From Desulfobacterales bacterium (GTDB taxonomy: Bacteria; Desulfobacterota; Desulfobacteria; Desulfobacterales; C00003060), in assembly GCA_013375375.1 (NCBI GenBank), contig JABXJX010000009.1, forward strand, positions 1-41,636: 41,636 bases of DNA. The letters run 5' to 3'. The notes under the pieces were generated by a model. It made no database searches. It was given only the letters and a program-made list of their open reading frames with translations, and was not told where the DNA came from. This document shows, piece by piece, positions 24,995-39,022 of this stretch. The position numbers and the translations under genes are program-made. Each line of letters opens with the position of its first letter. Within the stretch, counting starts at the first letter, position 1.

Positions 24995-25345
24995 ATGACA
25001 AATTCATTCGGTAACGCACTTCGTGAATGTCGGCGAGCGGCCAAACTTAGTCAGAGAGAGCTGGCAAATCGGATCGGGTTGGACTTTTCATATATAAGCA
25101 AGATTGAGAATGGACGACTCCCTCCCCCATCGGCTGACACCATCGTAGAAATTTGTCGCGTATTAGAGATCGAGCCGGAAGAACTTCTTGCCCTCACTGG
25201 CAAAATTCCATCTAAAGTCAGGGAAATTGTTAGCAGCAGCAAGACCGCCCAAGAGTTCCTAAGCGAGGCACAACGAATGGGCCTTACTGACGATGAGTGG
25301 ACAACAATGGTTAAATCGCTACGAAAACTCAGAGGACACGACTGA
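24995..25345 (+). CDS. XRE-family HTH transcriptional regulator
   Basis: FGNALRECRRAAKLSQRELANRIGLDFSYISKIENGRLPPPSADTIVEICRVLEI. Confidence 0.9.
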   Translation: MTNSFGNALRECRRAAKLSQRELANRIGLDFSYISKIENGRLPPPSADTIVEICRVLEIEPEELLALTGKIPSKVREIVSSSKTAQEFLSEAQRMGLTDDEWTTMVKSLRKLRGHD

Positions 25346-26319
25346 TGAATGTGGCCAAGACATATCAAACGTCGTTATTTGAAGACAAGCCACAGCATGT
25401 TTCTGTACGAGAGGCTATCCAAAATATAACCTGGTCTCACAGTCGGCGCTCAACATTGGAACAGTGTGCCCGACGTTATTACTATCACTACTTTGGCGCA
25501 AACAAACGCACAGCAAAAAGGGAGCTGGCAAAAGAAACGCTCCATTTTCTCAAAAACAGGGTACAGAACCGTTATATGCTCGCTGGTTCTGCGCTCCACA
25601 TAGTGGTAAAAACCTACTTCGATAAAGCACAATTGGGTGATCTGTGGGACGTGGATCGTCTAATAGGCTTTGCTCGGAAAATCTTCCGAGAAAGCTGGTC
25701 ATACTCTCAAGCCCATCCAGATGGCAAAGTCACTCCAAACCAGAAGTACCCACCAATCTTGCTCCAAGAATACTATTACGAGCATCCCGAGGCGGAAGAC
25801 CTTTGTGCCGCCGAGGAAAACCGTCTTGTTAACGCCCTGCATTCCTTTGCAACAAATGATTTATACGATCAATTCCGGGTGGCTGGTTCTGCACCCGCCG
25901 CATTGGTTGAACGCAAGATTAAATTAGGGGACTTTCCTTGCAAGGTTGCGGGCAAAATTGATCTTGCTTACCAAGCAAATGCTGGAGTTTCTGTTGTGGA
26001 CTGGAAGTTAGGGCTTGGGGACGGAACGGGTGATGATAGCTTACAGCTAGGAGTTTATGCAGTGTGGGCGACTGACCATTTCAAGTGCGCCCCAGACGCA
26101 ATACGCGTGTGCAAAGTGCATTTATCATCCAATGAAACGGCTGATTTTAGAATCAATACTCAGGTACTTGCTTCTGTGCGTGCCCGTATAATCCAAGATG
26201 CAGAGCGAATGGTAGCGCTAGAAGAATACGGCAAGGAAGCTATAGTTGAGGCGTTTACTCGCTGTGAGAAGCCTTCTATATGCAACCTGTGTGTATTTAG
26301 GAGAGTTTGCTATGATTGA
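25345..26319 (+). CDS. Cas4/RecB-like PD-(D/E)XK nuclease with predicted Fe-S cluster
   Basis: N-terminal LEQCARRYYYHYF, GKIDLAY, VVDWKLG, LQLGVYAVW (QxxxY), C-terminal CEKPSICNLCVFRRVCYD. Confidence 0.82.
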   Translation: MNVAKTYQTSLFEDKPQHVSVREAIQNITWSHSRRSTLEQCARRYYYHYFGANKRTAKRELAKETLHFLKNRVQNRYMLAGSALHIVVKTYFDKAQLGDLWDVDRLIGFARKIFRESWSYSQAHPDGKVTPNQKYPPILLQEYYYEHPEAEDLCAAEENRLVNALHSFATNDLYDQFRVAGSAPAALVERKIKLGDFPCKVAGKIDLAYQANAGVSVVDWKLGLGDGTGDDSLQLGVYAVWATDHFKCAPDAIRVCKVHLSSNETADFRINTQVLASVRARIIQDAERMVALEEYGKEAIVEAFTRCEKPSICNLCVFRRVCYD

Positions 26320-27898
26320 AACGAACATTCGAATTGTCTATCCAGGTAAGGGTTTATACGTGTCAGTCAAGGATGCTGAAGTGAAAGGATCTGACCTTTC
26401 GGTTGATCTGCTTGAGCGGGCATGTGGTAGGTTACGCTACCAACAGGGGCTTGCTTCAATTCTGTGCCCTGGTCCGCCAGCAAGTCTGCTGGTAGCGACT
26501 TCGCGTCCTATTCCAACCATGCTAATGGAGGACGAGGACTGGGAACTGGAAATATCAGATGCCGGCCGGAATGCGTGGCGTCTAACGCTATCCGATCAGA
26601 AAGGGGAGACCTTCTTGCCTTTGCTGATAGAGCGGGCGCTCATGGCAAAACTTGCACGTCACACCAAGTTTTGGACACTTGATAGCCCGCGTAACTGGTA
26701 TGAACCTGAGCCTTTCTGCATTGAAAGGGGCATCTCTGTCTATCGGCGGTATCGCATAGCCGGTCTGCCGTTGGGTGATCAGGGTATTGGCATTGCTGTG
26801 GACGTGGGCACAGCTTTTTTCACTGTCGATACCCTCGCTTACTTCTTTGACCCAGATGTCTCCCGCATGGAACAACAGCAACGTGAGAGACTATTCGACA
26901 AATTGACAAATCGACAAAGAGGGCAAAAAGGTACGCTTCTGTATGATAACAGCAAATCGCAAGTGAAATGCTATTTCGAGTCAGCCCCTCCTGGCATTAC
27001 CTGTGCAACTACCGGAATAATTCGGGCGAAGGGACACAGCTATGACTCTCTGTATGATTATTATAAAGCCGTATATCCCAAGTTGAAAGTTAATAAGGAT
27101 GCACAGGCTGTGAGCGTCTCTTTCAGCAACATACGCAAGCCGCAATGGGTGGCTGCCCAGCAAGTGCGCGTCCGTGTGATGAACGACTCATTGCCAAGAG
27201 AACTCAGCTCGATTGACAAAATCAAACCCAATATGCGGCGCGAGCTATTACAAGGGTTTTGGGCGAAGCTTGGGTCACGCCCGTTTGGGCCAGGTTTCCC
27301 CAGTCTATACCGAGGATTTTGGCGTCCTAAGACAGAGCGCGTTCGTCAGTTTTCAATTCCCGACCTAACCTTTGGCCGAGATAAGGTCCTGTCCGCACCG
27401 TCAACACCCTCAGCGAAAGCTTATCGGAGTAATTATATGCAGCGCTTGGAGTATCTGGAAGAAATCGGTTGTTACTATGTACCGCCAGACATGCCACGTA
27501 CTTTGCATTTTGCCTATCCTAACAACCTCGATGGAAAGATATGTGAGCAATTTGCTAGTGATCTGACTCAAGCTGTCCGCACCTGGACTGCGTGGGCGGG
27601 GTGTTCGGTTCAAGCTGCTCAGCCGATTGGATACGACTCGGTCTCCAGTGGCATCGAAAAACTCAGGACTGCAGAACGCGACGGCATTGCGGTATTCGTT
27701 CTAAGTGCTGAGCCTACTGCATATCACGAGGTTGCTTTCCAGCTTGAACGCTGGCGTGTCAAACGAATTACCGAGCATTCTCTCCAGGAGCATTACCAAT
27801 ATCTCAAAGAAGGCTACTGGAGTAAGAAAAAAAAGGCACTGGACTTAGCTTCGGGTAAGAGACGCTGGGAAGACTTTGTTAAACAGAATGCGCTATGA
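26312..27898 (+). CDS. Prokaryotic Argonaute, N/PAZ/MID part (ORF ends at in-frame TGA)
   Basis: 528-aa ORF; PAZ-like region (GHSYDSLYDYYKAVYPKLKV...VRVRVMNDSLP) and MID-like region (DGIAVFVLSAEPTAYHEVAFQLERWRVKRIT). Start 26312 overlaps the nuclease stop by 8 nt. Confidence 0.72.
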   Translation: MIETNIRIVYPGKGLYVSVKDAEVKGSDLSVDLLERACGRLRYQQGLASILCPGPPASLLVATSRPIPTMLMEDEDWELEISDAGRNAWRLTLSDQKGETFLPLLIERALMAKLARHTKFWTLDSPRNWYEPEPFCIERGISVYRRYRIAGLPLGDQGIGIAVDVGTAFFTVDTLAYFFDPDVSRMEQQQRERLFDKLTNRQRGQKGTLLYDNSKSQVKCYFESAPPGITCATTGIIRAKGHSYDSLYDYYKAVYPKLKVNKDAQAVSVSFSNIRKPQWVAAQQVRVRVMNDSLPRELSSIDKIKPNMRRELLQGFWAKLGSRPFGPGFPSLYRGFWRPKTERVRQFSIPDLTFGRDKVLSAPSTPSAKAYRSNYMQRLEYLEEIGCYYVPPDMPRTLHFAYPNNLDGKICEQFASDLTQAVRTWTAWAGCSVQAAQPIGYDSVSSGIEKLRTAERDGIAVFVLSAEPTAYHEVAFQLERWRVKRITEHSLQEHYQYLKEGYWSKKKKALDLASGKRRWEDFVKQNAL

Positions 27899-27901
27899 GT
27901 T

Positions 27902-28636
27902 TTGCAGCTCCTGGATGCGGTTCCGTTTAGGTTTGATCAGGCAGGTCCATACGAAGCGCAGTTGATTATTGATGTGGGATATGATCGCCGCCACTCGGCA
28001 CTTTCCTTGCTTATTTCGCGTGACAGGGATAAGAAACCAGACTTCTGTATTGTTTCTGATATTCAGGTTAAGGCTGACCATCAGCATGAATTTATTAACC
28101 CTAAAGTATTAACTGATCACATTGTGAGGCTTTTCAAGAAAATCTTGCGTCGCCATAGCGTTCCAATAGAGTCGTTGTTGGTGTTACGCGACGGTCAATT
28201 CTGTGGCCAAGAACGTCAAGGGATTGATAATGCAGTGGCATCTTTGATCGATAAGAAGAAGTTTGCGAGAGAAATCCGGGTTGACGTGGCAGATTTCCGT
28301 AAAGACAGCCTAAAGGCGGTACGTCTTTGGGAGGTAAATGAGAACACAGGTACTGCTGAAAATCCTCTGGATGGTAGAGCGGTACAGTTGAATGACAAAA
28401 TGGTAGTGGTGACCTCAACCGGCGCTGCTACATTGCATCAGGGGACAGCACAACCTTTTATGATTGTTGGAAACGGTGGCTGTTCTCGTCTTATTGACGC
28501 AGCTCAAGCCACCTTTGCCGGGTCTCAGCTTAACTGGTCTAGTCCCAGAGTGGCTCAACGGCTACCATTGAATGCCAAACGCGCAGATGAAGAGCTCAAA
28601 GCACGTGCTGACCAAGAGATAAAACGGTTCCGGTAA
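27902..28636 (+). CDS. Prokaryotic Argonaute, PIWI part (same frame as 26312-27898, directly after TGA-GTT)
   Basis: LIIDVGYDRRHSALSLLI, LLVLRDGQFCGQE (RDG), QLNWSSPRVAQRLPLNAKRADEELK are PIWI-type motifs; only a TTG is available as start, with no evident ribosome-binding site. Confidence 0.8.
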   Translation: MQLLDAVPFRFDQAGPYEAQLIIDVGYDRRHSALSLLISRDRDKKPDFCIVSDIQVKADHQHEFINPKVLTDHIVRLFKKILRRHSVPIESLLVLRDGQFCGQERQGIDNAVASLIDKKKFAREIRVDVADFRKDSLKAVRLWEVNENTGTAENPLDGRAVQLNDKMVVVTSTGAATLHQGTAQPFMIVGNGGCSRLIDAAQATFAGSQLNWSSPRVAQRLPLNAKRADEELKARADQEIKRFR

Positions 28637-28664
28637 CCCCTCTTGTCAGAAAGGAACGGTTCTA

Positions 28665-29111
28665 ATGAAGAATGACTGGATGACCACATCGAGTTTTGAG
28701 CGCATGCATGAGGTGATCTCTGCCATTAATGTGCTATCTATTCACGCAAAACTTGTGAAAGCCAAAGTGATAGACCCGACTGATCAAGCCGATATTCAAC
28801 GGGCTAGGGATCGTCTGTTAACTTTTCTGGGTCGCTTTCAAGTCCTAATCCAAAATGCTGAACAAGGTGGTGCCACCGTTGTCGGTGCTGATCCACGGTT
28901 GGGCGAGCTGGCCCTGCGATTTCTATCTCACAAACGGCGTTTATCGCATCGAACACCTCTATATGAGATGTCCTTTGATAGACTGAGGGAACTGATTAAA
29001 GTGGATAATTCGGAAAGCTTACCCGATCTTATATCATGTCTAAGGGACCTGCGTTCGCTGGTGGAGCAGCACGCTTATGCTGATGTAGTCGATCTTCTCG
29101 GAGACGTGTAG
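28665..29111 (+). CDS. Unknown helical protein in the Argonaute operon
   Basis: 148-aa ORF 28 nt after the PIWI stop, with AGAAAGGA upstream of ATG. Confidence 0.65.
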   Translation: MKNDWMTTSSFERMHEVISAINVLSIHAKLVKAKVIDPTDQADIQRARDRLLTFLGRFQVLIQNAEQGGATVVGADPRLGELALRFLSHKRRLSHRTPLYEMSFDRLRELIKVDNSESLPDLISCLRDLRSLVEQHAYADVVDLLGDV

Positions 29112-29113
29112 AG

Positions 29114-30322
29114 ATGCAAGACCTTTTGATGCGACGCAATCAGGAACTTATTCACAATATTGAGGTGCTGCTCGATTCCATAGATAAGGTGCAAATCCCT
29201 GAGGAGCTTCAGCCCTACAAGAAATATGTTGTACAAATGTGTAAAACGCTCCAAGGACATATCAATCGAAATATTGCCCACCTACGATTAGACCAAATAG
29301 ACATTTTGGACGATGTGCTTAGTAACACAAAGCAAGTCACTCAATATGTCCGTCTTTTGAGCTCGCGCCTGTCCACCCCACTTCTGCGTGCTTCGTCGTC
29401 CGACCGGCTTTCTCTCTACATCATCGGGTGGTTGCACAAAGAGCATCCTCAGACGGCGAATTATCCACCAGCCTTTGTTGACGGAGGCTGCTCAGTCTTT
29501 CCGTTTGAGTTATCACCTGTCTATTTTTTCCCGTCGGCTGAACAGCGAGGGCTTTTATATCAGCCTTTACTCTTTCATGAATTCGGTCATTTTCTCTACG
29601 TTCGCCATAAGCCTGAGATGGATGATCTAGTATCCGAACTCCGGCAGGACGTTACTGATTTACTCGTGCCTGTCTCACAGCGGAATGATCGCTATGCGGA
29701 AGAACAGGCGGAAAAGCGCCAAGTAATTGCGGATACATGGTATATCTGGGCTCAGGAATTATTCTGTGACGCGGTGGGCTTTGAGATAGGTGGTCCCAGT
29801 TTTCTATATGCTTTTTCTTCATTCGTCGGAGGGTTGCATCAAGGAGATTTTTCCCGTCAGCCAAAAGACTTGCGGCTGAGTGACCACCCAGTTACTTGGC
29901 TGCGTGTACGCTTTCTGGCAGAGTGGGCGGCAACTTCCGGTTTTGCTGACTTAGCAAAAGCTATAGAAGAAGAATGGAGCATGGTTGCCCAGATTATCGG
30001 CGCAGTGGAAGATTATCATGGCTTTTACCATGAAACATTATCGAAGGCGATCAAGGATACCATCCAGGACATGCTAACAGAAGCCTCACCCCGAAAACAC
30101 ACTGATTCTGAAGCAACCGCTGGTGGCTGGAGTCCAACCTCCGACTCGCCTGTGCGTTTGCTCAATTGGGCTTGGCAGATTTACACAAATGACTATGAGC
30201 AGTACCCTACTTGGGAAGCCGAACAGATAGAATTACTTATCTCTAATGCAACTTACAACCTCCAAAATGGAGAACAGTCAGAAAACGACAAAGGGGTCTT
30301 GTCATTGAAAACATTTGCATGA
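29114..30322 (+). CDS. HExxH zinc-metallopeptidase-like protein in the Argonaute operon
   Basis: PLLFHEFGHFLYVRH (HExxH) and downstream WAQELFCDAVGFEIGG (candidate third-ligand ExxxD); 2-nt gap after the previous stop. Confidence 0.7.
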   Translation: MQDLLMRRNQELIHNIEVLLDSIDKVQIPEELQPYKKYVVQMCKTLQGHINRNIAHLRLDQIDILDDVLSNTKQVTQYVRLLSSRLSTPLLRASSSDRLSLYIIGWLHKEHPQTANYPPAFVDGGCSVFPFELSPVYFFPSAEQRGLLYQPLLFHEFGHFLYVRHKPEMDDLVSELRQDVTDLLVPVSQRNDRYAEEQAEKRQVIADTWYIWAQELFCDAVGFEIGGPSFLYAFSSFVGGLHQGDFSRQPKDLRLSDHPVTWLRVRFLAEWAATSGFADLAKAIEEEWSMVAQIIGAVEDYHGFYHETLSKAIKDTIQDMLTEASPRKHTDSEATAGGWSPTSDSPVRLLNWAWQIYTNDYEQYPTWEAEQIELLISNATYNLQNGEQSENDKGVLSLKTFA

Positions 30323-30400: not shown

Positions 30401-31114
30401 CTACCCCAACTGCCACGTCGGCTCGTCCTCAAAGTGGATATTGTTCACCTGGAGCCAATGCACAGGATCAAACTCGGGCCTGCTTGCGTACGCCCTTGTG
30501 AGTCCCACACTCAATACCACTGCCACATTGCTCTGTAATCGTTTCACGAGGTGCTGAACAAGGGCCTCATTGGGGGTGACGTGATCATCGCCGTACAGGC
30601 GTATATCCGTCACGCCACAGTCGGGATAGAAATCGCTATCATTGAATTGCAAGCGAATCTGACTCGGCCTATCTGACCTCTTTCGAATGTAAAGCATCGG
30701 ACGTCCCCGCGGTACAACGCATCCAAGGGAAGCCGACCCCTTGCCAACCTCAACAGCGTAAGACTCGCTGCCCACTGCCGTTAGATCATCCCCAAAAACA
30801 TCCCTTAATCTCGGCTTAGCGATCTGGGTAAGGAGGCTCCAGAATTTTCCTGCCTTAAGCGTCCCGATGGTCCTTGCTCTGGATAGATCAACGACATGAT
30901 CTTCGACTTCGGGCCTCCTTTGGAGAGATCTGGGTGTGCCGAGATCCACAACGACACGCATGTCAAACGGACCATTATTGCGGACCAGGAGATTTGTACT
31001 CAGCCTCCCCGCTACGGACACTGGCCTCACATGGTGTCCAGTATCCATATCGACGCCTGCGACACACATATAGCCCCGCTGCATCCGGGTTAGATGATTA
31101 ACGACGATCCTCAT
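30401..31114 (-). CDS. Hypothetical protein, possibly dual-OB nucleic-acid-binding type
   Basis: 237-aa ORF MRIVVNHLTRMQRGYMCVAGVDMDTGHHVRPV...; beta-rich and next to DUF488 genes. Family call tentative. Confidence 0.4.
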   Translation of the reverse strand: MRIVVNHLTRMQRGYMCVAGVDMDTGHHVRPVSVAGRLSTNLLVRNNGPFDMRVVVDLGTPRSLQRRPEVEDHVVDLSRARTIGTLKAGKFWSLLTQIAKPRLRDVFGDDLTAVGSESYAVEVGKGSASLGCVVPRGRPMLYIRKRSDRPSQIRLQFNDSDFYPDCGVTDIRLYGDDHVTPNEALVQHLVKRLQSNVAVVLSVGLTRAYASRPEFDPVHWLQVNNIHFEDEPTWQLG

Positions 31115-31123
31115 GCGGCTTTT

Positions 31124-31561
31124 CTACAGGTGGACTATCTTTATATTCCCCCACTTGTCTTTGAGGTACTCCGAAACCAAGCGTCTATGGCAATGATCTG
31201 CCGTCGGCTCGCTGCAAAGGAGAACAGCCGGGACTTCAAACAGTGCCTTGTCAACTTTTTCTTCAATCCTGCGTTCTGCCATCAGTGCCATGAAACGTCT
31301 CTCGTAATCCTGCCAGGTTATTTTCTTATTCTTGTAGTCGTCGAGGATATCATTGGTGGGGGCAAGTATGGACATATGGATATATTCCGCGGCGCACAGT
31401 TCCTGGAGAAAGAAGGAGAGATCATCTCGCTTGGTGAAACCCGCGAGCTGGGAAGAGTTGTTCAGTCTCACATCTATGAGACGCTTGATTCCGGCCTTTT
31501 TCAATGCGCTGAAGAACTGTCGAGCTTTTTTCTTGGCAAAACCGATTGTGTAGACTTCCAC
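31124..31561 (-). CDS. DUF488 family protein (copy 1)
   Basis: VYTIGFAKKKARQFFSALKKAGIKRLIDVRLNNSSQLAGFTKRDDL and LLCSEPTADHCHRRLVSEYL. Confidence 0.85.
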   Translation of the reverse strand: MEVYTIGFAKKKARQFFSALKKAGIKRLIDVRLNNSSQLAGFTKRDDLSFFLQELCAAEYIHMSILAPTNDILDDYKNKKITWQDYERRFMALMAERRIEEKVDKALFEVPAVLLCSEPTADHCHRRLVSEYLKDKWGNIKIVHL

Positions 31562-32121
31562 TCGGGGACCTCCTCCTTGGGCTCGAAAAAGCTTAGTTGA
31601 GCCTGCTCACCCTTGCTCTGGTATGCCTCCTGGGCAAGTTCGTCTTCATCTTGAACCGTGCCATCTCCACGAATGTGCCGAACACTTACTCCTCGCTTCG
31701 CGAGCACCCGACCGACAAGAAGCTGGCGATGGCAATTTGCAGGGTTTTCTTCACTGCACATCACAGCCACGCGATAGTTCTTGATTCCTTTTATCAGGCG
31801 ATCAATGCCTTCAAGAAACAACGGAGATTCAGCAATCCGCGAATACAAAACAAACCCTTGGTTGTCGTAAAATTTCGAGCCCTGTGGCCTTCCGCCAAGC
31901 TCCCTTCCCAGAAATAAATACTTAATGCCACTTGCTTTAAGTGCCTTCTCAAACCCCCCCTTGTTAAATTGGGGTGAGAACCGCGAAAACGGCTTGGAAC
32001 GTACGTCAACGAGCACTTCAATCTTGTGGGATTGTAGTAGATTGATGAACACCTCCAACGAATGGTTGGAATGACCAACAGTGAATATGGTGAGTTTTCC
32101 TTGTAACTGGTTGTCGTTCAT
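31501..32121 (-). CDS. DUF488 family protein (copy 2)
   Basis: IFTVGHSNHSLEVFINLLQSHKIEVLVDVRSKPFSRFSPQFNKGG and VMCSEENPANCHRQLLVGRVL; 3' end overlaps copy 1 start. Confidence 0.9.
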   Translation of the reverse strand: MNDNQLQGKLTIFTVGHSNHSLEVFINLLQSHKIEVLVDVRSKPFSRFSPQFNKGGFEKALKASGIKYLFLGRELGGRPQGSKFYDNQGFVLYSRIAESPLFLEGIDRLIKGIKNYRVAVMCSEENPANCHRQLLVGRVLAKRGVSVRHIRGDGTVQDEDELAQEAYQSKGEQAQLSFFEPKEEVPEWKSTQSVLPRKKLDSSSAH

Positions 32122-32363: not shown

Positions 32364-35135
32364 TTATTTCGAGTGTTTCCTAATTACTCCCTCAATATCG
32401 CTCGGGTGAAAAGATACATCTGCATTCCACTTTCCAAAGCCACCGTGTGAATTGACGGCATTCACCCATTCTTTCAGATATGCCCTTTTTGTTCTATTCC
32501 GTGCATTATCTTGTCCCTTCGTTTCCAGAATCAAATGCTGGCCATTTGTCAGTTTGATGATGAAGTCTGGGTAATATTTCCTTATTACGCCTTGATAATT
32601 GTAGAGTATGGTAAAGCCCAAATGGTCATTTTTTACATAGGATTTTACCAGCGGACTCTTATCAAAAGCATAGGCCTCCGATGCTTCCCATGTGCTATCA
32701 AACACAACATGATTTATATGTGATTTTTGTGCCCACTCGCACGGTTTACTGGTATCCCATGTCCTCATCTGCCATGTTGATCGAATAGGATTTTCCGAAT
32801 CAAAGACCGGCACCAATTCTTCAGTGTTCTCCGCCCTGATTAAGTCCCATATATGCTGAACAATCTTATTCATGTTCAGCAGAATAAGAACTCGCCGTTT
32901 CCATTCTTCAAGACCGAACAAGTCGTTTCTAATGACAATCTTGTTAGAATTTACAAAGCCTTGGATAAGTCTTACAAGCTGAGCAAGAAGATATTCCTTT
33001 GTCCCCTTCCAGTTAGGCTTTTCATTATTGTAAATCTGGGAGGCAATCTTGAATATTATGGTTTGCAGCCTGTTCTCTTCCGCAATCCGCTTCAGATCGA
33101 TTTCAGAAATAACTGTTGGATTTGGTTTGCCCGCAATAATTGCTGCCAGTTCGGCATGTGTAATGCTGTCATAAGGATCAAGCTCAATTGGCGCAACCTT
33201 GTCATAATCAAGAGCAAGTCGGGTTCTATAAACGTGTTCTATACGGATGATATTGGGCCATGATATTTTGTGTTCCTGCTTTTCCTTTACCGGCTCAATC
33301 GTAGTTTTAGGCTTAGGTGGTGGAGGTGCGACCTCGTCTCCGCCCTCGTGTGGCAGGAAAGTAAATGGCACACCGAAAATATTAACATACTCGGGCTCGT
33401 ATAGCCCGCCGTCACCCACATCATAGCATGTCCTTCTTAATCCGCGGCCAACAACCTGTTCGCACAAAAGCTGGCTGGAAAAAGCTCTGAGTCCCATAAT
33501 ATGTGTGACTGTCTTGGCATCCCATCCTTCAGAAAGCATTCCAACAGAAACCACATTTTGAATCTGCTCTCCTACCTCGCCAATCTTACCCACAGTATCC
33601 ACCTGTCTGCGCAGCAGTTCAGCCTGTTCTTTTTTGGTAAGCTTTTTCTCAGCCTTGTCTGTCCAATCGACAGAAATGCTTTCTGCTTCTTCCTCTGCCT
33701 TCTTCAAAACCTTGCTGTCTATTTGTAGCGTCTTTTCTGAATCACAGAGCTCAGGAATCAAAACCTGATTATGCTCAAAGGCATAATTGATCCGTGCGGA
33801 TGTCTCTGTCCTGTTTGCCACCGTGATCATCACAGGCGGAACCTTATGGCCGGTCTTTTCCCAATTCTCTTTGGTTACGAGCCAGTCTTTGCCCAGCAGG
33901 TAATAAGCATTAGTGACCAAGTCTGGCAAGGGCTCACTCTCCTTAGCCCTTCTGTTTATGTCATCTTTAACCTCATCGTCCATATAGATGTGGTAAAGTC
34001 GTGGCTTGAGTTCTCTCGTCATTCTACTGTCGTCTCTTATCACTACCCGCGGCGTTTTGACCAATCCTGACTCAATAGCATCATTCAGTCCAAAATCGCT
34101 GACAATCCAACCGAAAAGTGCCTCTTCGGTGCTCTTCTTACCTGATGGTGCAATGGGAGTGGCCGACATGTCAAAGCTGCGCACGATGCCTCTGCTTCTG
34201 TGTATTCGGTCTAATCCGCTCACCCACACCGTAGCTTGCTCTATTTCTTCCTTTTTGACTCCCTTTACCTTACTTTCGGCAGGAACTCTCCAGGCATGGT
34301 GTGCCTCATCATTTATCACAACGATATTTCTGGCGTTTGCCATATCGCCAAGCACTTCCCGGACATAGGCCTCATCGCTTTTTGGGCCACGTTTATCTAC
34401 GGTTTTCTTTTTAGCAATTTGCTCTTCAGATTCCCAGGAAAGTGCATGCCAGTTTTGAATTAGCACCTTCCCCTGTCGCAGTTTATCCATCAGGGCTGGG
34501 GGAACAACATTGAACTCTTCGTAATAATTGTTCGGATCATTGGGATTGAGCACAGACAAACGGCTTTTGACTGTCAGGCCGGGAGCAACTACCAGCACAT
34601 TCTTTGAAAAACGCGTATCCTTGATATTGGCCACCTTATTGAGTACCTGCCAGGCTATTAGCATCGACATTACCACTGTCTTGCCAGAGCCCGTGGCCAT
34701 CTTGCAACACCAGCGAACAAAGTCTCCCCCATCTGACGGTATTTCTACCCCCACCCTGTCTGAGTCTGGCGCTTCAGTAAGCCAGATAAGGGTTTCAATA
34801 GCCTCGAGCTGGCAGAAGAAAAAACGACTGTCTTTTCGCTCTTCCAGGTCACGCCAGTGATTGAGAAGGCGCTTGGTAATTCCCGTAACACCGGAATAGT
34901 TGTTCTCCTGCCATTCTTTCACACGCGGTCTGATCTTGTTGACAAGTTCTATGGGCACAAATATTCCTGGATCGTCAAAAGCCCTGGAGCCAGGTGTTGC
35001 AATTACATATCCGGCGGGCCTTCGACCGTCAGCCTTTGAAAAGGTGCGGCTTTCGCGGTTATACAACCAATACTTTGTGGGTTCTTCAAACGGCGGATTT
35101 ATGATGAGCCTGTCTATTGTAGTTCTCTTTTTCAT
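32364..35135 (-). CDS. Type III-like restriction endonuclease subunit (SF2 helicase + PD-(D/E)XK)
   Basis: WCCKMATGSGKTVVMSMLIAWQ Walker A, INDEAHHAW (DEAH-like box), QVVGRGLRR (motif VI), C-terminal YYPDFIIKLTNGQHLILETKGQDN (PD...ExK). Confidence 0.88.
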   Translation of the reverse strand: MKKRTTIDRLIINPPFEEPTKYWLYNRESRTFSKADGRRPAGYVIATPGSRAFDDPGIFVPIELVNKIRPRVKEWQENNYSGVTGITKRLLNHWRDLEERKDSRFFFCQLEAIETLIWLTEAPDSDRVGVEIPSDGGDFVRWCCKMATGSGKTVVMSMLIAWQVLNKVANIKDTRFSKNVLVVAPGLTVKSRLSVLNPNDPNNYYEEFNVVPPALMDKLRQGKVLIQNWHALSWESEEQIAKKKTVDKRGPKSDEAYVREVLGDMANARNIVVINDEAHHAWRVPAESKVKGVKKEEIEQATVWVSGLDRIHRSRGIVRSFDMSATPIAPSGKKSTEEALFGWIVSDFGLNDAIESGLVKTPRVVIRDDSRMTRELKPRLYHIYMDDEVKDDINRRAKESEPLPDLVTNAYYLLGKDWLVTKENWEKTGHKVPPVMITVANRTETSARINYAFEHNQVLIPELCDSEKTLQIDSKVLKKAEEEAESISVDWTDKAEKKLTKKEQAELLRRQVDTVGKIGEVGEQIQNVVSVGMLSEGWDAKTVTHIMGLRAFSSQLLCEQVVGRGLRRTCYDVGDGGLYEPEYVNIFGVPFTFLPHEGGDEVAPPPPKPKTTIEPVKEKQEHKISWPNIIRIEHVYRTRLALDYDKVAPIELDPYDSITHAELAAIIAGKPNPTVISEIDLKRIAEENRLQTIIFKIASQIYNNEKPNWKGTKEYLLAQLVRLIQGFVNSNKIVIRNDLFGLEEWKRRVLILLNMNKIVQHIWDLIRAENTEELVPVFDSENPIRSTWQMRTWDTSKPCEWAQKSHINHVVFDSTWEASEAYAFDKSPLVKSYVKNDHLGFTILYNYQGVIRKYYPDFIIKLTNGQHLILETKGQDNARNRTKRAYLKEWVNAVNSHGGFGKWNADVSFHPSDIEGVIRKHSK

Positions 35136-35136
35136 A

Positions 35137-38013
35137 TCACAACCTCATAATCTTCAGGCTCTCAATTCCACGGTCGTCAATGATTTTAACTGCAATTTGC
35201 TTTGACATCTCAAAAGGCAGACTGACTGTTCCCCGGTATGCCTCGATTCTTTCTTCATCAATTTGTGCCTTCAGGTTTCGCGCCAATTTGTTCCAACCCT
35301 CTTTTGCGCCTGCCAGGGGGAAGAAAACCTGTGAAGGGAAAAGGCTCCTTCCGTCATAGTCCGTGTCGAGCATCCACATGGCAATGTTATTCTTGCCACC
35401 AGATTCCACATTGCCGATTTTGGTGTTGTAATAGTCAAAGCCTAGCACCTCGACCTGTAGCTTACCCTTGTGCTCGCCCTTCTTGATGTCCAACACCCTT
35501 ACATCCGGCTGACCTACAAGCCAGAAGCTCTCATTGCTTAAGCGCTTCTTTTTTAAATCATCTGTGAGAAGATCGGCGTTCATCTGCACCTTTAGAAACT
35601 TCATACCGGCAGTTTCCGGTGGCATCTCGTCAATATCCTTGGCTGCCTCATCATCAAACTGGAAGGCAACAAAAAGCAGTATGTGCGGATTAAAAGGCCG
35701 TGCTTCCTGCCAGGCTTCCTCGACCTGGCGTTGCTCCAAGGGTGCATGTTCCGGGCCGAAAGAGATCAAAACCTTTTCAGGCTTCCAGATAGGAACGGCC
35801 TCTGCAACTGTGTCAGCACCAGCATCGCTTCTCTTGGTTTCTGCTTCAGCGTGCAAATAACGTGTTCCTGCAAGAGGTTCAACCCGCGAAAACATAATCC
35901 GCTGTCCCGCTTTCCCACGGATGCCTGTTTTTAGAAGCTCCTGTCGCCATTCGTCCTGTCGCAAGGTCTCTCCAGAGCGGGTTACACTTTCGTCCCCGAC
36001 CTCTTTGTCCTCCGCAATTTCTTCAAAGGACTTTGCAACCGGCGCAGGCACAGCCTCAACAGTAAACGGCCCGGTGATGTGTTTTCTCTTCTTGTCAACA
36101 AGCGGCTGGTCATAAAGGGTTTCTTCTTTGGGTGGTTCATTGTTGGCAATGGATTTGAGGGTGATGTGCGGCACTGTCTTGTATTTGAAGCCGCTTCCAA
36201 CCCCTTCGTCAGGATGTGCCAGCTCATAGTAATCATAGATGGCAGTCATGAGCCTCTGTTTCGCCAAGGTAAGGGCCACTCTGGATGTATCGCAGGTGAT
36301 CCATCGTCTGCCCCACTGCTCGGCAACATAGGCGATAGTGCCACTTCCGCAGGTGGGGTCAAGGACAAGATCACCAGGGTCTGTAGCCATAAGAAGACAA
36401 CGCTGAATTACCTTGTTTGATGTCTGAACAACATACTGAATATCAGTTGCACCATGCGTATCATTCCATAAATTATGCAGGGGCTGCACAGGAAAATCAT
36501 CGTGATATTGCACGAAACAAGGGAGATTGCCGGGTGCCGTGATGCGCCCTACTTGGACTAAACGGCTCATCCCTTCTTTGTGCGTTCTCCAGCTCTTTCT
36601 TCCACATTTGAAAGTGCGGCCTTCAAACTCAAAATCATACATGCACGTCGGGGTATAGCCCGAGGAAGAGAGGGAACTCGTAAAAAAGACTCGAGCATCT
36701 TTGGGTAAATTCCTCGGATTTCTTTTTTCATCCAGCGTCATTTTTCGACGCGTTCCATCTGAAAGCTCAACCCATGTATACCCAGTTCCTTCACCAATTG
36801 GCTTTCCCTCAAATAGCTCTCTATACTTAATATTTCGCACATCTTTTGCATACCAAAGAATATAATCGGACACGCCGGCTAGCCCTGAGCTTCCGAGCGG
36901 CAGGGTTTTCTTGAATGTTATAAGGCTAAAAAAGTTCTCCGACCCAAAAACCTCGCCGAGCAACTCCCTAACATGATGTATGTTCTCGTCTCCGATTTGC
37001 ACCAAGCAGCTTCCGCTATTATGTAGAAGCTCTCGCGCTAGCATTAGCCGGTCGCGCAGATAAGTCAAATAGGAATGAATCCCCAGTTCCCAGGTGTCCC
37101 TGAAAGCCTTTATCATCTCTGGTTCGGCAGTCAGATCTTCATCTTTTCCGTCCTTGACATCCCGCTTGTTCACAAATGGCTGAAAGTTAGAGCCGTACTT
37201 GATGCCATACGGCGGATCAATATAGACCATCTGTACCTTGCCGCCCATGCCTTCCTTTTCCAGCAAAGAATTCATCACAAGCAGGCTGTCTCCTGCAATC
37301 AAACGGTTTGTCCAACCCTCTTTGTGCTTGTAGAATTCAATTGCCTGTCTGAGCGGTCTTTCAAACTGTTCAAAAAGAGAAGCCTGGACAGGGCCTTTTT
37401 CTTCTTTCTTGACAGTCTCAATTATTCTTTTTGGATCGATCCGCTCGTGGACATGCAATGAGACGGTGTCTACCTCAAGGCTTGTGTGTTCCGCCTTTCC
37501 GGCCCACTGAAGCTGAGGGTCAAGATGCGGGTCGTATTCATATTTGTTCTTCTTAGACTGTAGCGGATCGGTCTTGGGATTCACAAGCCCTACAGGGGGG
37601 TTGTTCAGCCGCTCTTTGTCCTTGTGCTCATATTGTTCAATCGGCTTTTGACCCTTGCTTCTTGTCGCCATGCCCACATCCTTTCCTGTCTTGCCGGTTT
37701 TTTGCTTTGCACGTTTACTGTTTGCCTGTTTTGCCTTGGTTCTTTTCCTGCTGGTGTTTCCCAAAATAGCCCTTATCAAATCATGTTTTTTATGAGACTC
37801 TGCTGTAAGTTCAAACGCATGCAAGATTTCCTTTAATTCCGAAACTCTCAAAAAATCAAGAATTTGCTCTAAAGTGAGGCTCCTGATCTTCATCAAGGCG
37901 TCAACAATATCCGCCTTTTTATTCACAGAAGGCCCAGAAACCTCGAAATACCTACAGATGTCAACAAGCCCTTTTTTTGTAAGGCATTCCAGCACTTTTC
38001 TTTTGGTAATCAT
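35137..38013 (-). CDS. Type III-like adenine-specific DNA methyltransferase (Mod) with N-terminal SAP-like repeats
   Basis: MVYIDPPYGIKYGSNF (DPPY), DLVLDPTCGSGTIAYVAEQWGRRWITCDTSRVA (motif I-like). Adjacent to Res. Confidence 0.88.
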   Translation of the reverse strand: MITKRKVLECLTKKGLVDICRYFEVSGPSVNKKADIVDALMKIRSLTLEQILDFLRVSELKEILHAFELTAESHKKHDLIRAILGNTSRKRTKAKQANSKRAKQKTGKTGKDVGMATRSKGQKPIEQYEHKDKERLNNPPVGLVNPKTDPLQSKKNKYEYDPHLDPQLQWAGKAEHTSLEVDTVSLHVHERIDPKRIIETVKKEEKGPVQASLFEQFERPLRQAIEFYKHKEGWTNRLIAGDSLLVMNSLLEKEGMGGKVQMVYIDPPYGIKYGSNFQPFVNKRDVKDGKDEDLTAEPEMIKAFRDTWELGIHSYLTYLRDRLMLARELLHNSGSCLVQIGDENIHHVRELLGEVFGSENFFSLITFKKTLPLGSSGLAGVSDYILWYAKDVRNIKYRELFEGKPIGEGTGYTWVELSDGTRRKMTLDEKRNPRNLPKDARVFFTSSLSSSGYTPTCMYDFEFEGRTFKCGRKSWRTHKEGMSRLVQVGRITAPGNLPCFVQYHDDFPVQPLHNLWNDTHGATDIQYVVQTSNKVIQRCLLMATDPGDLVLDPTCGSGTIAYVAEQWGRRWITCDTSRVALTLAKQRLMTAIYDYYELAHPDEGVGSGFKYKTVPHITLKSIANNEPPKEETLYDQPLVDKKRKHITGPFTVEAVPAPVAKSFEEIAEDKEVGDESVTRSGETLRQDEWRQELLKTGIRGKAGQRIMFSRVEPLAGTRYLHAEAETKRSDAGADTVAEAVPIWKPEKVLISFGPEHAPLEQRQVEEAWQEARPFNPHILLFVAFQFDDEAAKDIDEMPPETAGMKFLKVQMNADLLTDDLKKKRLSNESFWLVGQPDVRVLDIKKGEHKGKLQVEVLGFDYYNTKIGNVESGGKNNIAMWMLDTDYDGRSLFPSQVFFPLAGAKEGWNKLARNLKAQIDEERIEAYRGTVSLPFEMSKQIAVKIIDDRGIESLKIMRL

Positions 38014-38300: not shown

Positions 38301-38756
38301 TTAACCGCCAGACTCCTTGTTCAAAGCCAATCGAATACAAGACAACAATTCCCCAGGCGTCAAGACTTCTAATCGTGCGGTGTCGTGAGGCCAATAATCC
38401 TTGACGTTAAAGGTAACGAGAAATTGCGCTTTTGTCTCAAATGCCGATGCCAGTATGGAAACATCTTTCTTGTGGGCCTGGTTTGAGACAAGAGACAGTG
38501 AAGCTTTGTCGGGCTGGGTTGTCGTGATCGACACACACCTTTCAACGATGTTCTCAAAAGGGGCAATAGCGCCGGGCAGTTTCTTTGCAAGGTTTCTTCG
38601 GCATTCCTCCAACACCCGGACAGAAACATAACCCTTAATAAGACCCAACTCAGCCAACTGAAGGAGGGCAAAGGAGGCGCCGCCGGCAGAAGCGCTTCCG
38701 GCAATCATGACGTCTGAGTCGAAGAAAACGGGTACTGGGAAATTGAGATCCTTCAC
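38301..38756 (-). CDS. PIN-domain toxin-like protein
   Basis: VPVFFDSDVMIAGSA, AHKKDVSILASAFETKAQFLVTFNVKDY; next to an AbrB-type antitoxin gene. Confidence 0.75.
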   Translation of the reverse strand: MKDLNFPVPVFFDSDVMIAGSASAGGASFALLQLAELGLIKGYVSVRVLEECRRNLAKKLPGAIAPFENIVERCVSITTTQPDKASLSLVSNQAHKKDVSILASAFETKAQFLVTFNVKDYWPHDTARLEVLTPGELLSCIRLALNKESGG

Positions 38757-38758
38757 CC

Positions 38759-39022
38759 CTATTCCACGTCCGTTCCGTATTTCGCACGCTGCTCTGCCAC
38801 GCCGGCAATCAGTTCTTCGGTTGAGACACCGTGTTTTTGCCTCAAATGCTCAATTTCTTGCGCAAGCTTTGGCAGCAAGGAACGCTTCGGACTTAGAAAC
38901 ACACCTTCTCCGAGGTCTATTAGGGTCAGAGGGTCTCCTTCCTCCAGACGATATTTCTCCCGTATTGTCACTGGGAGTGTTATGGTCCCGCGCTTTCGGA
39001 GCTGGATTGTCGTGGTATTCAT
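38759..39022 (-). CDS. AbrB/SpoVT-type antitoxin
   Basis: TIQLRKRGTITLPVTIREKYRLEEGDPLTLIDLGEGVFLSP. Confidence 0.88.
   Translation of the reverse strand: MNTTTIQLRKRGTITLPVTIREKYRLEEGDPLTLIDLGEGVFLSPKRSLLPKLAQEIEHLRQKHGVSTEELIAGVAEQRAKYGTDVE

Follow-up and report, generated by a model that had tools for sequence, protein, structure and literature searches.

The stretch of DNA analysed here (the window; 41,636 nucleotides, positions 1 to 41,636 of contig JABXJX010000009.1 in assembly GCA_013375375.1, from a Desulfobacterales bacterium) carries a five-gene operon encoding, in this order, an HTH regulator, a Cas4-like PD-(D/E)XK nuclease, an Argonaute, a small protein and a protein with an HExxH motif (Table 1). 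The whole Argonaute frame (26312-28636, 774-775 codons) contains a single internal TGA. From the ATG at 26312, 528 sense codons lead up to this stop at 27896-27898, after which the open frame resumes with GTT at 27899 and runs for 245 codons to a TAA at 28634-28636. Both coordinates and frame agree with the original prediction, which had described an ORF at 26312-27898 ending in TGA and a same-frame continuation to the TAA, 775 codons in all.

Table 1. Features of the Argonaute operon (positions in the window)
Feature	Coordinates	Strand	Basis
HTH (Xre-type) regulator, first operon gene	24995..25345	+	Pfam HTH_31 5.8e-16
PD-(D/E)XK Cas4-like nuclease	25345..26319	+	PF12705 5.3e-14; PADLOC Aga_Cas4-like_Nuc 2.8e-17
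5' part of Argonaute gene (N to MID), closed by in-frame TGA	26312..27898	+	ORF; PADLOC pAgo_II 117-415; Shine-Dalgarno -7.6 kcal/mol
Premature TGA, codon 529	27896..27898	+	Residues of the relatives in this column: D, S, N, N, G, E, A, G
3' part of Argonaute gene (PIWI; D554, E593, D627, D759, K756)	27899..28636	+	PADLOC pAgo_II 581-767, 1.1e-24
Small conserved operon protein, 148 aa	28665..29111	+	27% identity to Poribacteria gene in same place
402-aa protein, HExxH...ExxxD	29114..30322	+	Putative gluzincin-type metallopeptidase, by motif only

The Shine-Dalgarno energies of the five operon genes range from -5.8 to -10.9 kcal/mol. The nearest relative of the locus is found in a Candidatus Poribacteria MAG (JAJDTR010000062.1, L017), with the same five genes in the same order and an Argonaute that is 40% identical. 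The HTH regulator shares 55% identity with the first gene of that operon, while the nuclease and the HExxH protein share 39% and 40%, respectively, with their counterparts. Based on alignments, the nuclease keeps the catalytic residues D206...D219-W-K221 as well as the CxxC...C cluster residues. The small protein is present in every complete operon read (118-157 aa across loci). The HExxH protein spans 376-412 aa across loci, and its residues H155, E156, H159, E215 and D219 are invariant (7/7, with a shift of one Asp column, and 4/4). Neither of these two proteins had a match in Pfam or the PDB, and the model of the HExxH protein (moderate, pLDDT 71) matched no solved fold. The main text of PMC9360449 names as operon genes the nuclease, an HTH protein (PliAgo group) and a sigma factor (PnyAgo group), and the two downstream genes appear not to be discussed in it. 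Conserved and little discussed, the small and HExxH partners may be needed for the function of the system.

In the operon genes tested (25345-30322) the third-position GC is 0.44-0.49, versus approximately 0.60 in the flanking gyrA and sigma-54 regulator genes, which suggests that the Argonaute island was acquired. Downstream, all on the minus strand, lie a Dual-OB (DuOB) protein followed by two overlapping DUF488 proteins (30401-32121), adjoining a complete type III-like restriction pair (32364-38013) that consists of a BPTD_3080-family restriction endonuclease (1094.6 bits) and a type III methyltransferase. A toxin-antitoxin-like pair of a PIN-domain and a MazE-like protein is located at 38301-39022, also on the minus strand.

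Identity of the Argonaute and its relatives

The two halves of the interrupted gene match the PADLOC model pAgo_II (PDLC02382) at positions 117-415 and 581-767, and the joined frame matches it at 2.9e-31. The joined frame also aligns end to end with the Poribacteria Argonaute (764 aa; 303/776 identities, E 7e-179). Since the halves follow each other along a single pAgo profile and the joined frame spans an intact Argonaute from end to end, a chance adjacency of two unrelated pieces is ruled out. When the window protein was combined with three relatives into a profile, this matched the Argonaute of PDB entries 7r8f-7r8k (789 aa) at 6.5e-160, over positions 1-792. This chain, labelled only "Argonaute" in the PDB, was taken to be PliAgo, given that its length and its residues D563, E592, D626, D762 and K759 fit those published for PliAgo (PMC9360449). 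In the kinship test against PliAgo and RslAgo the one-to-one identity is 16-24%. By alignment columns the DEDD catalytic tetrad is kept (D554, E593, D627 and D759, with the codon of the first Asp at 27971-27973), and so is the conserved Lys of guide-binding type, K756, three residues before the last Asp (K759 in PliAgo). The Lys that the PliAgo group carries two residues past the first Asp (K565) is absent, with a Gly in both the window and the Poribacteria protein (IDVG vs IDVK). Judged from its sequence, the read-through protein belongs to the long prokaryotic Argonautes of the D-R kind, a class that, according to PMC9360449, uses DNA guides to cut RNA and whose first group is defined by PliAgo and RslAgo.

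The same gene order is found on plasmids of Rhizobium sp. L51/94, Runella slithyformis, a cyanobacterium, Emticicia and Spirosoma, with no HTH gene listed for the cyanobacterial locus and with a sigma factor replacing the HTH in Emticicia and Spirosoma. It also occurs in Gemmatimonadaceae and Poribacteria MAGs, whose loci were found by a profile scan of genome contigs. Protein-pattern searches of the genome contigs, of viral contigs and of a phage collection found nothing, and no other genome in the samples of the genus, order, class and phylum carries the locus. A candidate from the same genus (G643) was rejected, as it holds a distant pAgo and not the operon of this family.

A tree of nine sequences joins the window protein to the Poribacteria protein with full support, on a long stem of 2.1 changes per column, and this pair falls outside the groups holding RslAgo and the sigma-factor-linked proteins. 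The exact position of the pair is unsure with the distant row G136, which has a very long branch; without it the pair stands apart in both halves of the protein. The two proteins would therefore make up a third deep lineage of the D-R pAgo class, distinct from the PliAgo and PnyAgo groups, and through them the locus may reveal an apparently unsampled part of these rare DNA-guided RNA-cutting Argonautes.

Readings of the in-frame TGA

In each of the eight relatives read (Poribacteria and seven others) the Argonaute is a single frame through the site of the TGA. The alignment of homologues that had been proposed as a check shows a sense residue in 8/8 (D, S, N, N, G, E, A, G), in a column that is variable and never holds Cys. 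In the Poribacteria gene, one unbroken frame of 764 codons (L017:4171-6465), an Asp stands where the window has its TGA; comparing AL-stop-VLQ with ALDVLQ, one codon differs and the frame is equal on both sides. The TGA sits 25 residues ahead of the first catalytic Asp, in the helix directly before PIWI strand 1. This helix was assigned by family alignment and not from a structure model: the AlphaFold model of the read-through protein (pLDDT 40) is unusable and no structural claim made here uses it. The original prediction that the stop lies in the helix before PIWI thus holds, with the refinement that the TGA stands at the MID/PIWI junction and yet falls within a conserved helix. Two further explanations were rejected: a double frameshift around an A8 run, since conserved residues keep the frame both before and after it, and an alternative genetic code, given that ordinary contig genes terminate at TGA or TAA and, read with table 11, match family models at full length.

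An evolved two-subunit Argonaute, divided between MID and PIWI, would require the downstream half to be translated on its own. Natural split long-B pAgos are known (AfAgo, PMC10954474), although there the cut separates N-L1-L2 from MID-PIWI, whereas the cut in the window falls inside the helix preceding PIWI. As the original prediction had it, the PIWI half offers TTG starts only, with no clear ribosome-binding site. The sole in-frame starts before the catalytic Asp are TTG 27902, with an anti-Shine-Dalgarno energy of -0.3 kcal/mol, and TTG 27962, with a weak site (-3.7 kcal/mol) that is too far upstream; the next start with a Shine-Dalgarno sequence, GTG 27974, lies past the codon of the catalytic Asp. 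An ATG overlapping the stop (ATGA, 27895-27898) is in another frame, which closes after 11 codons. All relatives are single chains, and in none of the eight does the Argonaute occur as two ORFs with their own start sites. Considering the lack of a plausible start and the position of the known split before MID, a natural division of the protein is very improbable, and the earlier argument against an evolved split, in favour of a nonsense mutation, read-through or assembly error, is borne out by the single frames of 8/8 relatives and by a PIWI half without ribosome-binding site or strong start.

The TGA could also be an error of the metagenome consensus (a miscall or mixed strains), the Argonaute of the organism being intact. 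The genome is a draft MAG of 197 contigs with 87% completeness, in which an error of base calling or strain mixing would look identical to a real nonsense codon; one changed codon is enough to explain the interruption, and the rest of the gene and of the operon is intact. However, the contig genes tested include no further broken one: 9/10 of these (including gyrA, gpsA, radC, glgX and the type III Res) match their family models almost from end to end, and the tenth, the methyltransferase, for which there is no full-length NCBIfam model, matches the PADLOC type III methyltransferase. These near-full-length matches indicate that the consensus looks good and that TGA is an ordinary stop here. 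In addition, the TGA is outside any homopolymer; the A8 run lies approximately 60 bases before it, and the reading frame is correct both ahead of and behind that run. A sequence error is thus unlikely.

The PIWI half behaves as a gene under constraint. The ratio of downstream to upstream identity between the window and its nearest relative is 1.20, compared with 0.97-1.33 in four intact pairs, and the branch of the PIWI half (0.59) is not longer than that of its intact sister (0.73). Codon usage favours the right frame in both parts (0.136 per codon in the PIWI half versus 0.116 in the upstream half). Approximately 4.4% of random substitutions would make a stop and a second stop is absent in 773 codons, so that neutral drift since inactivation would be less than about 3% per site (P 0.048 at 3%). 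These comparisons support a PIWI half that was constrained until recently and, if the gene is inactive, a recent inactivation. An ancient pseudogene was rejected, as there is no second stop and the PIWI half has not drifted. Nevertheless, the constraint is equally expected under continued synthesis of the full-length protein by read-through.

Read-through could take two forms. If UGA were a selenocysteine codon, the genome would be equipped for it, as it has a tRNA-Sec(UCA) (74.6 bits), selB (372 bits, cut-off 242) and a formate dehydrogenase with an in-frame TGA. The latter (L035, G000:C119; TGA at 1768-1770 of the locus) is an observation of its own, by which the genome appears to make selenoproteins. 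An 8-bp hairpin with the loop CGGUUC begins 14 nt past the first base of the Argonaute UGA. However, this hairpin is at chance level (an equally good one follows 3.9% of the TGAs in the window, or 1.2% when the loop must contain GG), overall folding after the Argonaute TGA is weaker than in shuffles (z +1.3), and the site matches no Rfam SECIS family even at E 10, whereas the formate dehydrogenase site matches SECIS_3 (28.7 bits, E 1.7e-4, below the gathering score). Cys is absent at the TGA column in all relatives, including the one at 40% identity, and selenocysteine insertion has a very slim chance of being the explanation. Alternatively, a near-cognate tRNA (e.g., tRNA-Trp) might read the UGA at a useful frequency, so that full-length Argonaute would be made in small and perhaps regulated amounts. 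The tolerance of the position for many residues and the constraint on the PIWI half would fit; on the other side, the tRNA-Trp found carries an ordinary CCA anticodon, a UGA with G as its next base is not in the leakiest of contexts, the relatives all lack a stop at this site, and TGA terminates ordinary genes of the contig. We regard this form as improbable. Taken together, a UGA recoded in either way, with the Argonaute made in small amounts or only under certain conditions, is quite improbable; to our knowledge, it would be the first Argonaute known to be controlled by stop-codon recoding.

Real nonsense mutations are common in defence genes. The locus is probably a D-R-type Argonaute operon, otherwise intact, that has recently gained one nonsense codon (TGA, codon 529), a reading favoured by three properties of the PIWI half: it lacks a usable start and ribosome-binding site, its constraint matches that seen in intact pairs, and no further stop interrupts it. 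Ordinary translation would then end after MID and yield a 528-residue fragment without PIWI, for which neither seating of the guide by the C-terminus nor cleavage of RNA would be possible. In this strain the operon would have little or no activity, full-length protein arising at most in traces by background read-through of the UGA. Under this nonsense mutation, the stop in one draft genome would be an ordinary instance of a switched-off defence gene, and the case illustrates how a recent inactivation can be told from recoding or a natural split.

Comparison with known Argonaute systems

With the D-R pAgos (PliAgo and RslAgo, as described in PMC9360449, and the 7r8f-7r8k chain), the window protein shares the long Argonaute, the DEDD tetrad and the Lys before the last Asp, and its operon shares the upstream Cas4-like PD-(D/E)XK nuclease and the HTH regulator described there. 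The plasmid locus of Runella slithyformis, the species of RslAgo, has the same gene order as the window. Unlike the members of the PliAgo/RslAgo group, the window Argonaute is interrupted by a TGA, is without the second Lys and stands on a separate deep branch. The BPAN systems of long-B pAgo and nuclease (PMC10620215) likewise combine a long pAgo with a PD-(D/E)XK nuclease partner, but their pAgos are catalytically inactive, whereas the window Argonaute keeps the DEDD residues. As for the stop itself, a published precedent is the AfAgo operon of Archaeoglobus fulgidus (AfAgo/AfAgo-N; PMC10954474), where, as in the window, a premature stop interrupts a pAgo operon; there the stop is found in one strain and a related strain has the longer gene. 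It differs in that the lesion is a 2-bp deletion in a separate N-L1-L2 gene and that the natural split lies before MID, not between MID and PIWI.
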